Assembly (NCBI GenBank): GCA_030744875.1
Contig: JASLPR010000055.1
Coordinates: 1 to 41,966, forward strand
DNA: 41,966 nt
Source of the DNA: Chloroflexota bacterium
GTDB lineage: Bacteria; Chloroflexota; UBA11872; VXNJ01
Direction of reading: 5' to 3'
Shown here piece by piece: positions 27,337-30,556 of the stretch. Made by a program: the position numbers and the translations under genes. The notes beneath the pieces were generated by a model. It was given only the letters and a program-made list of their open reading frames with translations, was not told where the DNA came from and did not search any database. Every line of letters begins with the position of its first letter. The stretch's first letter is position 1.

Positions 27337-27475
27337 TCCAGCGCCACACGGAGCAGGTGCGCAGTTGGATATCCACTCCTGCAGCCGCCGACTCCGGGGA
27401 AACCGCCTCGCGTATCCTTGCCGGTGCGGGGAGGCTGAAATCAGCCGACTCTTAAACCAGTCAAGCGAGGCGAAG

Positions 27476-27934
27476 ATGAGCGCTGAAGAACGACTGCAAG
27501 AACTGGGACTGGAACTGCCGGAGCCGGCCCGACCGCTCGGCTCCTACGTGACCATCGTGCGCACCGGGAACCTGCTCTTCACCGCCGGGCACCTGCCAGC
27601 GGCCGTCAATGGCAAGTCCTGGCAGGGCAAGGTTGGGGCTGAGTACTCCATCGAGGAGGGCGCCGAAGCCGCCCGTCTCACCGGCCTGAACATCCTGGCC
27701 ACCGTCAAGGACGCCGTTGGCAGCCTGGATCAGGTGGCGCGGGTGGTGAAGCTCACCGGGTTTGTGAACAGCGCCTCCGGATTCAGCCAGCAGCCGGCGG
27801 TCATCAACGGCTGTTCGGACCTGTTCGGCGAAGTATTCGGCGACGCTGGACGCCACGCCCGCTCGGCCGTTGGGGTGAGCGAACTGCCCCTGGACACGCC
27901 GGTTGAGATCGAGGCGATCATCGAGGTCCGTTAG
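27476..27934 (+). CDS. RidA family protein
   Basis: VRTGNLLFTAGHLPAAVNGKSWQGKVG, AARLTGLNILATVKDAVGSLDQVARVVKLTGFVNSA. Confidence 0.93.
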   Translation: MSAEERLQELGLELPEPARPLGSYVTIVRTGNLLFTAGHLPAAVNGKSWQGKVGAEYSIEEGAEAARLTGLNILATVKDAVGSLDQVARVVKLTGFVNSASGFSQQPAVINGCSDLFGEVFGDAGRHARSAVGVSELPLDTPVEIEAIIEVR

Positions 27935-27937
27935 CAC

Positions 27938-27960
27938 CGGGCGCGCCGCCGGCGCGCCCG
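27938..27960 (+). terminator. Terminator-like hairpin after ridA
   Basis: perfect 10-bp stem CGGGCGCGCC-GCC-GGCGCGCCCG directly after the stop; no U-tract. Confidence 0.5.
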
Positions 27961-27985
27961 CTCGGTAAAGGATGGGGACGGGTCC

Positions 27986-28897
27986 ATGCGAAACCTGCAC
28001 ATGGCCCTGCCCCTTCTGCTGTTCTTCTTCGCGATCATCATCTTCGTCGGACGTCTGGCCGATGCTCGCCCCTACCAGGAACTGGTTCGCGACTTCTCGG
28101 TAGGGACGATCGCGGAGGGTGACCGGATTGTGGCCTGGGGGCAGGTGGCGGGGCCGGTTGGCGAGCCGCTGGTGGCCGCCCGCGGGACGCCCGATTTCCT
28201 GACCAACGGCGCGACCGTGGCGCAGTTGGACGAGTTGCCGGTGACGATCACCCTGGAGCTGGACCCGCCGCTGACCGTCACCACCGCCGGCGTGGCGCTG
28301 GTCGGGCTTTCCGCCATGGAGGTCGCCGACCGGGAGCGGACCGTGGTGCGGGGTGGGGACGTGGTGACGGTGTTCGGCCAGTTGGAAGGCGAAGCAGCGG
28401 TGCGCGCCGGGACCATCTCGGCGCTGCCGCCGCAAGAACTCTACGACGACTGCCTGCGCAGCGCCGTGCGGATACTGGTCGGCGGGCTGGGCATGCTGGC
28501 GGTGTTCTACCTGCTGCCGTCGACGATCCGGCTGCTGAAGAGCTTCACCACCGAGGTGCGGCGCAGCCGTGCCCGCCGGCAACGGCAAATCGAGCTCCGC
28601 CAGCGCGACGAGTGCCCGGCCTGCCAGCCCTCGGCGGCGCGCGGCTTCATCGCCTGTGTGCAGTGCGGGCGGCCGTTGGAGCACGGCCCCCAGCTCAAGC
28701 AGATCCGCGAAGCCCTGCAGAACCTGCGCGAGGGTGGCGGCCTGCTGTTGTCAGGGGTGACCGAGGGGTCGGTTTCGCTGCGCTTCCGACGCCACGCGGG
28801 GATGAAGCTCGAGATTCGCTCCGACGACATGAGTGTCGCCGACACCCGGGCCGTGCGGCATGTACTGTCGCGGGTCGGCGGGCCGCTGCGGCGCTAA
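27986..28897 (+). CDS. Membrane protein with C-terminal zinc ribbon, unknown function
   Basis: two TM segments (LPLLLFFFAIIIFVG; ILVGGLGMLAVFYLLP) and CPACQPSAARGFIACVQCGRPL (CxxC-x13-CxxC). Confidence 0.75.
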   Translation: MRNLHMALPLLLFFFAIIIFVGRLADARPYQELVRDFSVGTIAEGDRIVAWGQVAGPVGEPLVAARGTPDFLTNGATVAQLDELPVTITLELDPPLTVTTAGVALVGLSAMEVADRERTVVRGGDVVTVFGQLEGEAAVRAGTISALPPQELYDDCLRSAVRILVGGLGMLAVFYLLPSTIRLLKSFTTEVRRSRARRQRQIELRQRDECPACQPSAARGFIACVQCGRPLEHGPQLKQIREALQNLREGGGLLLSGVTEGSVSLRFRRHAGMKLEIRSDDMSVADTRAVRHVLSRVGGPLRR

Positions 28898-29033
28898 CCC
28901 GGCCCGGTCTGAGTGATCAACTCCAGAAGACGCCACCGGCCGCGCCGCCGCCCACGGAATCATCCGAGAGGTCTACGGGCTGGACGGCGACTACGGCGTC
29001 GAGACCCGGCGGGTGCCCTAGGCGGAAAGCGCC

Positions 29034-29066
29034 AGGGCCCGCCCCGGCGTAGCCGAAGCGGGCCCT
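29034..29066. terminator. Hairpin in convergent intergenic region
   Basis: AGGGCCCGC / GCGGGCCCT stem with inner CGGC-GTA-GCCG. Confidence 0.55.
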
Positions 29067-29074
29067 GAGCTTTG

Positions 29075-29169
29075 GACAGTATGTCCGGCGGTATCACCCT
29101 CCCCATTCGCAGAGGGAACCTTCTCTAGAGGCTGTTCACCCCCAGGAAGGATGCCCCGGACATACTGTC
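29075..29169. ncRNA. Candidate structured RNA element, strand unknown
   Basis: 14-bp inverted repeat GACAGTATGTCCGG (29075-29088) / CCGGACATACTGTC (29156-29169), extended by GGTATC/GATGCC, enclosing hairpin CCCTC-N10-GAGGG. Confidence 0.45.
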
Positions 29170-29277
29170 TGTAGGTTCAGACATTGGGCATCACCCCCCT
29201 TCATCCCGAGAAAATTACCACGGCGTCGCAAAGAGGGTCAAAAGATTCGTAGTGCGGGGTGGCGTCGGGTGGGGCGG

Positions 29278-29742
29278 CTAGTCCTCGGCGAGCCCGACGT
29301 TGATCTGCATCTTGCCCAGCTCGGTCTTTAGGGGCAGTGCCACGGTGGGCATCGTGATGGAGGAGATATGGATGCCGCTGCCTTCGATGATCGTGGGTGG
29401 CGAGAGGTCGCAGGTGTAGCCGGTCTCTTCCAGGAGAATGACGGCCTAGCCGGTAATCATGTTGCCCAGCTCGCCGATGGCGCTGCGGCCCAAGTCGTCA
29501 AGTTCGGTGACCGCCTCGCCCATCATCGCGCCAAAGACGCCGACCGCCATATCGTGGGACATGGAGTACAGCACAACACCCTTGATCTTGCCGGTCACCC
29601 CGATCAGTGCGGTGACATCTTGCGGGTTCACCCCGTCGGTGGTCATCTTCAGGGGCCCGTTGCGCTCGACTTTGACGCTGGCTTCCTTGGCGAGAACCTC
29701 GTTGGCGGCGGTGATGAACGGATTGATGAGTTGCGCTTTCAT
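29278..29742 (-). pseudogene. CheX/CheC-like chemotaxis phosphatase-family protein interrupted by in-frame TAG
   Basis: MKAQLINPFITAANEVL...VTALIGVTGKIKGVVLYSMSHDMAVGVFGAMMGEAVTELDDLGRSAIGELGNMITG*AVILLEETGYTCDLSPPTIIEG; TAG 29446-29448. Confidence 0.8.
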
Positions 29743-29925
29743 CCGGGTGCCTGACTCCATGGGGCGCTACGCTCGCGGTCCGCAGCGTTCCCGTAATTAC
29801 CCTTGGGCTCGGGGATCAGTATGATTTGGTTGGATTGGAATGATCTGTAACCGTTTGTACACCCAATCCTGTGTGCTGAGCCGCCGCGTATCCGGCGCAC
29901 GGCCCGGCCGCCCCCGGGGGATCGC

Positions 29926-30552
29926 TTGATCGATTGCCAGACCTACGTCGTCTGGGACGTGGAGACATTGCGTTTCAGCTGGGAAGTGCCGGGCCGCTGG
30001 TCGAACCCGGCCGGCTTCGGGCTCGCGGTCGCCGTCAGCCAGGACCACCTGGGCGTTACCCGTACCTGGGTCGAGGCCGACGCCCTCGAACTCATCGATT
30101 ACCTGTCCGGTTACGACTGTGTGGTCGGGTTCAACTCGCGGCGTTTCGACAACCGGGTGCTCGAAAAGTACGGCGATGCAGCGGCGCTGGATGACCTCAC
30201 CGTGGACCTGCTGGAGGACATCTCGGCGGCGGCCGGCCGCCCCAATTGCGTCTCCCTCGGCAACCTGGCCGAGACCCTGCTGGGCGAGACCAAGCTCCTC
30301 GACGACCCCACCGACGCCGTGCGCATGTGGCGCGGCGGCAAGTCCGAGGATCGCGACTACGTCGTCCGCTACTGCCAGCGGGATGTCGAGTTGACGCGGC
30401 GTGCCTTTGAGTTCGGCCGCGAGCACGGCTTCGTCATCATCCCGGTGCCCGACGCCGCCTGGAACGGCCTGCCGCTCGTTGCCCGCGTGCCGGTCGACTG
30501 GGGCGCGGGCCCGGCCGGGCTGCTGATCGCACCCGAAACGCTGGGCCGCTAG
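29926..30552 (+). CDS. Predicted 3'-5' exonuclease / RNase H-like (DEDD-type)
   Basis: YVVWDVETL, VVGFNSRRFDNRVLEKYG, VVRYCQRDVELTRRAFEFG; TTG start. Confidence 0.75.
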   Translation: MIDCQTYVVWDVETLRFSWEVPGRWSNPAGFGLAVAVSQDHLGVTRTWVEADALELIDYLSGYDCVVGFNSRRFDNRVLEKYGDAAALDDLTVDLLEDISAAAGRPNCVSLGNLAETLLGETKLLDDPTDAVRMWRGGKSEDRDYVVRYCQRDVELTRRAFEFGREHGFVIIPVPDAAWNGLPLVARVPVDWGAGPAGLLIAPETLGR

Positions 30553-30556
30553 CGCC

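Follow-up and report, generated by a model that had tools for sequence, protein, structure and literature searches.

A predicted structured small RNA with a micro-ORF running into its main helix lies between convergent genes in Chloroflexota

The window analyzed here, a stretch of 41,966 nucleotides covering contig JASLPR010000055.1 of a Chloroflexota bacterium (GCA_030744875.1), carries a YjgF gene at 27473-27934, identified by Pfam, and, beyond a gap at 27935-30556, a DUF2298 gene. Three extra genes lie in this gap, encoding a membrane protein, a CheX-like protein and an RNase H-like protein, and none of them is found in the corresponding gap of the related genomes G001-G003. The membrane protein has zinc-ribbon-like cysteines and no match in the order. 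The CheX-like gene (29281-29760, minus strand, Pfam CheX) contains an in-frame TAG at codon 105 with homology intact beyond it, which may be a mutation, a sequencing error or recoding, and contig C85 of the same genome carries another CheX-like gene. CheX was rejected as a synteny anchor, searches of the order's remaining genomes and of contigs having found none. The element described here occupies the minus strand of the gap, from a -35 box at 29236-29241 to the end of a terminator-like hairpin at 29026.

A sequence-only reading had proposed a structured RNA at this position, and all the pairings that it named are present. Its long helix, here called P1, is a 14 of 14 inverted repeat between 29075-29088 and 29156-29169, and 936 kb of the same genome contain no other perfect inverted repeat of 14 bp or more whose loop exceeds 22 nt. 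On the minus strand the 5′ arm GACAGTATGTCCGG (29156-29169) begins at +16 of a micro-ORF and pairs with the 3′ arm CCGGACATACTGTC (29075-29088), both arms being supported by the covariation described below. The interior pairings CCCTC/GAGGG and CCTTC/GAAGG exist as well. The minimum-energy fold of the window sequence on the minus strand has an interior hairpin of CCTTCCTGGGGGT with GCCTCTAGAGAAGG at 29119-29150, with the stop codon of the micro-ORF inside, and a second hairpin, CCCTC/GAGGG, at 29097-29116, which pertains to the window sequence only; relatives prefer one single interior helix in place of the 29119-29150 arrangement. Folding energy is far below that of shuffled sequence (z -6.2 on the plus and -7.1 on the minus strand, with 0 of 200 shuffles matching), and across 936 kb the 110-nt segment at 29071 on the minus strand ranks third of 62,064, the plus-strand segment being weaker at rank 36. 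The fold at the locus is more than chance.

The stem read at 29034-29066 does pair (29033-29067), but its place was misjudged: rather than standing upstream of the long helix, it is the element's own downstream terminator-like hairpin. This GC hairpin with its tail GGCGCTTTCC (29026-29074, minus strand) is the predicted 3′ end of the RNA, assigned by its fold and by its likeness to other intergenic terminator-like hairpins of the genome, which have the same form. Many other top-ranked fold segments are strong hairpins of this intergenic kind, several with tails like TTGCTTTC or TTTTGCGCTTTC. Very stable intergenic hairpins at L128 6641-6791, L134 701-911, L113 6641-6791, L116 12491-12641 and L084 11831-11981 have short, T-poor tails of the kind TTGCTTTC and are probably terminators. 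Most relatives of the element also have a GC hairpin 3′ of P1. The position between convergent genes and the form of 29026-29074 are what one would expect if the locus were nothing more than two transcription terminators or the remains of a mobile repeat, but the conserved promoter, ribosome-binding site and ORF and the covariation of P1 make this most improbable. Intrinsic termination as the sole explanation was rejected, as P1 lacks a U-tract and its loop measures 67 nt, and 29026-29074 alone fits a terminator-like hairpin; so was a MITE or mobile inverted repeat, the element being single copy in its genome with none elsewhere by pattern.

Searches by plain DNA similarity found no true homologue of the element. 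Short DNA matches in G001, G004, G013 and G030 were rejected as markers of the locus: the first lies in a TolB/WD-like coding repeat and the second in probable coding DNA, and the other two fall on the GC hairpin. Homologues were found through protein synteny, which had been hidden by the extra genes in the gap of the window's genome. In G001-G003 a YjgF gene is followed by a DUF2298 gene, and each gap between them holds a diverged minus-strand counterpart. The four sequences can be aligned over the whole length between the -35 box and the terminator region. Of the four remaining genomes of the family, three have a syntenic homologue convergent to YjgF, as do both genera of a second family; G004 has nothing element-like 3′ of YjgF and seems to have lost the element. 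A first covariance model led to the g6 genomes of the second family, and the YjgF neighborhood led to g5 genomes, missed by the models, and to more g6 genomes.

The compensatory changes suggested earlier as a check are present in these homologues. P1 is 96.9 % paired in the four-sequence alignment, with five pairs changed on both sides, and its arms differ widely in sequence among the window's genome (G000), G001, G002 and G011. Across two families, 97.8 % of P1 cells are paired and 13 of its 15 pairs have both-side changes; for the whole structure (nine sequences, two families) the count is 18 of 27 pairs. The whole structure has 46 cells changed on both sides against 16 expected from shuffling, a control that ignores relatedness, and 0 of 500 shuffles was as good. 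A control that keeps relatedness, sliding the pairing partners by 1-3 columns, lowers the paired fraction to 34-47 %. By comparison of sequences we thus show conservation and covariation, which bear out a genuine structured RNA between convergent genes. One detail of the earlier proposal fares differently: the GTCTG/CAGAC hairpin (29167-29182) pairs in the window, but it is not conserved in relatives, leaving a competing switch through it unsupported.

The alignments also show that the predicted RNA lies on the minus strand and not on the plus strand first read. In the minus-strand reading there are 17 G-U cells against 2 A-C cells, an excess that identifies this strand as the RNA, and promoter, ribosome-binding site and ORF are present there only. 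The -35 box TTGACC (29236..29241, minus strand) is followed after 18 nt by a -10-like box TAATTT (29212..29217, minus strand), which aligns with TAGCTT in G002 and G003 and with TAGGTT in G001. The position of TTGACN, an element outside the covariance model, recurs: 12 of the 27 elements have it at -55 to -57 relative to the start codon, followed 17-18 nt later by a -10-like box. Generic scans called neither the promoter nor the terminator in the window, and both were assigned by comparison with relatives. Downstream, the extended ribosome-binding site GAAGGGGGGTGAT (29190..29202, minus strand) is complementary to the 16S 3′ tail. As the 16S 3′ end in the window's genome is GGATCACCTCCTTTCT, the two pair over 13 nt, counting G-U. 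Complementarity of 11-15 nt is found in all 27 elements and is kept even where letters change; 16S-complementary stretches this long, at 14 sites in 936 kb on both strands, are rare, not unique. The anatomy of the element is well supported by sequence.

The ribosome-binding site leads into the micro-ORF MSEPTDSMSGASFLGVNSL (29125..29184, minus strand), which runs for 19 codons from ATG at 29184 to the stop TAG and takes part in the structure that no ORF had been thought to explain. Its start codon is kept in all homologues (ATG, with GTG in three), and a stop, TAG or TAA, stands in the same column, 19 codons on, in eight of nine order-level rows, G001 having a frameshifting deletion and 22 codons. 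Such conservation, together with the strong ribosome-binding site, would suit a micropeptide gene, in which a peptide of 14-24 amino acids is the product and the structure merely tunes translation or protects the message. The pattern ATG-NNN-GAN-NNN-AGT-CGN, giving the N-terminus M-x-[DE]-x-S-R, recurs across several families and fits such a gene too. However, the remaining peptide drifts, with the frame broken in G001; some of its similarity tracks RNA segments (GCATCC, GGCATCACC), and helix P1 is better conserved than the peptide. We therefore regard a micropeptide gene as unlikely, if worth keeping in view. With a conserved start and a drifting peptide, initiation of the micro-ORF looks to be under selection, and the peptide may or may not matter.

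The placement of P1 relative to this ORF is the key to the reading that we prefer. P1, of 14-16 bp, starts at nucleotide +16 of the ORF and encloses its stop codon; on bacterial mRNA the footprint of an initiating ribosome reaches about +15/+16, counted from the A of AUG, which is where toeprints usually fall. Initiation would thus be compatible with P1 and elongation would not. In most elements P1 begins at +14 to +20, with arms better than shuffles. A simple arm search gave no clear P1 in G388, G055, G119, g5 and some g6 members; the g6 folds nevertheless show it, bulged, and in g5 members it comes later or is folded differently.

From these sequence features we lean towards a ribosome-engaging structured small RNA or micro-mRNA, in which translation opens P1 and the output acts in trans, as the probable reading, if by a modest degree. 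It would be an independent minus-strand gene for a small RNA, from about 29205 to 29026, whose transcript starts almost at the 16S-complementary ribosome-binding site and ends with the terminator-like hairpin. Ribosomes would load efficiently on the micro-ORF, and the initiating ribosome would sit against P1, whose edge would coincide with the ribosome's leading edge. Each round of elongation would then open P1 and free its 3′ arm, so that ribosome occupancy would switch the RNA between two states. The output would be the RNA itself, gated by translation, whether or not the peptide has a role, as in dual-function RNAs. Since ribosomes usually unwind such helices, the gate at +16 may be mild. 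In 11 distant genomes a segment of the ORF region can significantly mask the ribosome-binding site, and in some (G083, G046, G091, G311 and G119) the masking segment is identical with the 5′ arm of P1, an arrangement that would amount to a two-state switch. Masking was rejected as a general mechanism, as it is not significant in the window's order (p 0.135 for G000).

That the output is taken to act in trans follows from the neighbors. In most genomes, namely G000-G003, G005-G011, G013, G017 and G023, the next gene is oriented towards the element. Alternative pairings, a ribosome-binding site, a micro-ORF and a terminator are also the anatomy of a leader attenuator, which would act in cis on the next gene; the attenuator-derived rnTrpL/peTrpL also has a terminator. 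Same-strand genes do follow in some genomes, as judged from translations: a peptidase in several g6 genomes and, in three distant genomes (L214, L222 and L227), a BirA-like biotin ligase gene, a placement that is possibly an ancestral one in that lineage. Yet convergence in the window and most relatives, the differing downstream genes elsewhere and the absence from the peptides of consecutive codons for a single regulatory amino acid make an attenuator very unlikely.

The element may be one member of a phylum-wide RNA family. A second covariance model, run on 400 genomes of the phylum, matched 15 genomes of the order and, weakly, 15 distant genomes. The distant matches score 23-34 bits, with per-genome E values of 1e-4 to 0.04 over 400 genomes that are individually weak; the best false score in 1.26 Mb of control sequence was 13.9 bits. 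These candidates would be unconvincing alone, but all 15 have an ORF of 14-24 codons and a long stretch complementary to 16S. Features that the model does not contain recur too: most have a GC terminator-like hairpin, and TTGACN takes the position given above in some of the elements. A weak match in G020 without the element's anatomy was rejected, as were viral contigs in which an SD-start pattern starts other genes or is unrelated. The 7.4 Mb genome G151 has two model matches (C1:2616332-2616382 and C1:4049012-4049063), and the element may be multi-copy there.

Searches of the open-access literature turned up no account of such a family, and, in line with the earlier statement that no known riboswitch, 6S or SRP consensus was recognized, no Rfam 15 family passes threshold for the window or its relatives. 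The element appears to be a ribosome-engaging RNA of a kind not described before. If so, it adds a structured-RNA family in which a micro-ORF is built into the fold and a helix edge stands where the initiating ribosome ends; if ribosome loading gates the fold, it would be a natural, compact device for sensing or regulating translation initiation.

Small RNAs with a short ORF are known. They include the dual-function SgrS/SgrT and VcdRP (PMC8672173) and the attenuator-derived rnTrpL/peTrpL (PMC7298713). The element differs from the dual-function RNAs in that its ORF is integrated into the main helix, at a fixed distance, and its 16S complement is near complete, and from rnTrpL/peTrpL in that no trp operon lies 3′ of it. 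The Downstream-peptide motif and yfr6 (PMC2864571) likewise join a conserved structured RNA to a short ORF, but in these the structured part is a 5′ UTR ahead of the ORF, whereas the structure of the element lies beyond the start codon and has the stop inside it.

A last comparison is with RNAs that might act as decoys. A perfect initiation site beside an edge helix could hold the 30S subunit, as 6S RNA holds RNA polymerase; the decoy logic would be common to both, though the partner differs and the element has no Rfam match to 6S RNA. The 16S-tail complement kept despite letter changes and P1 at the initiating ribosome's edge are consistent with such capture. Against it, the ORF has a proper stop, as though ribosomes should pass, and genes that are expressed well commonly have a strong ribosome-binding site, which leaves capture quite unlikely. 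The same low standing is given to its broader form, a widespread ribosome-capturing family that would trap free 30S subunits in a regulated way, or sense them, with CC2171 as its alphaproteobacterial counterpart.

CC2171 (RF01867) of Caulobacter, whose similar layout also speaks for capture, is the nearest Rfam family, at 21.7 bits for the window and 32.4 bits for L217 (G388), below the gathering score of 75. It aligns end to end with G388 and the window, far below threshold. Its consensus, compared with L217 1496-1628, contains an unremarked ribosome-binding site, perfectly complementary to the 16S tail over 15 nt, and a 22-codon open frame that begins with GUG; these layout features were partly read by eye from the Rfam consensus. 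The two are alike in their 16S-complementary start, short ORF, closing helix and terminator-like hairpin, a resemblance of layout only, and CC2171 differs in phylum, in its shorter closing helix and in being filed as noncoding. The comparison suggests that translated micro-ORFs may be present in CC2171 and in other RNAs now classed as noncoding.
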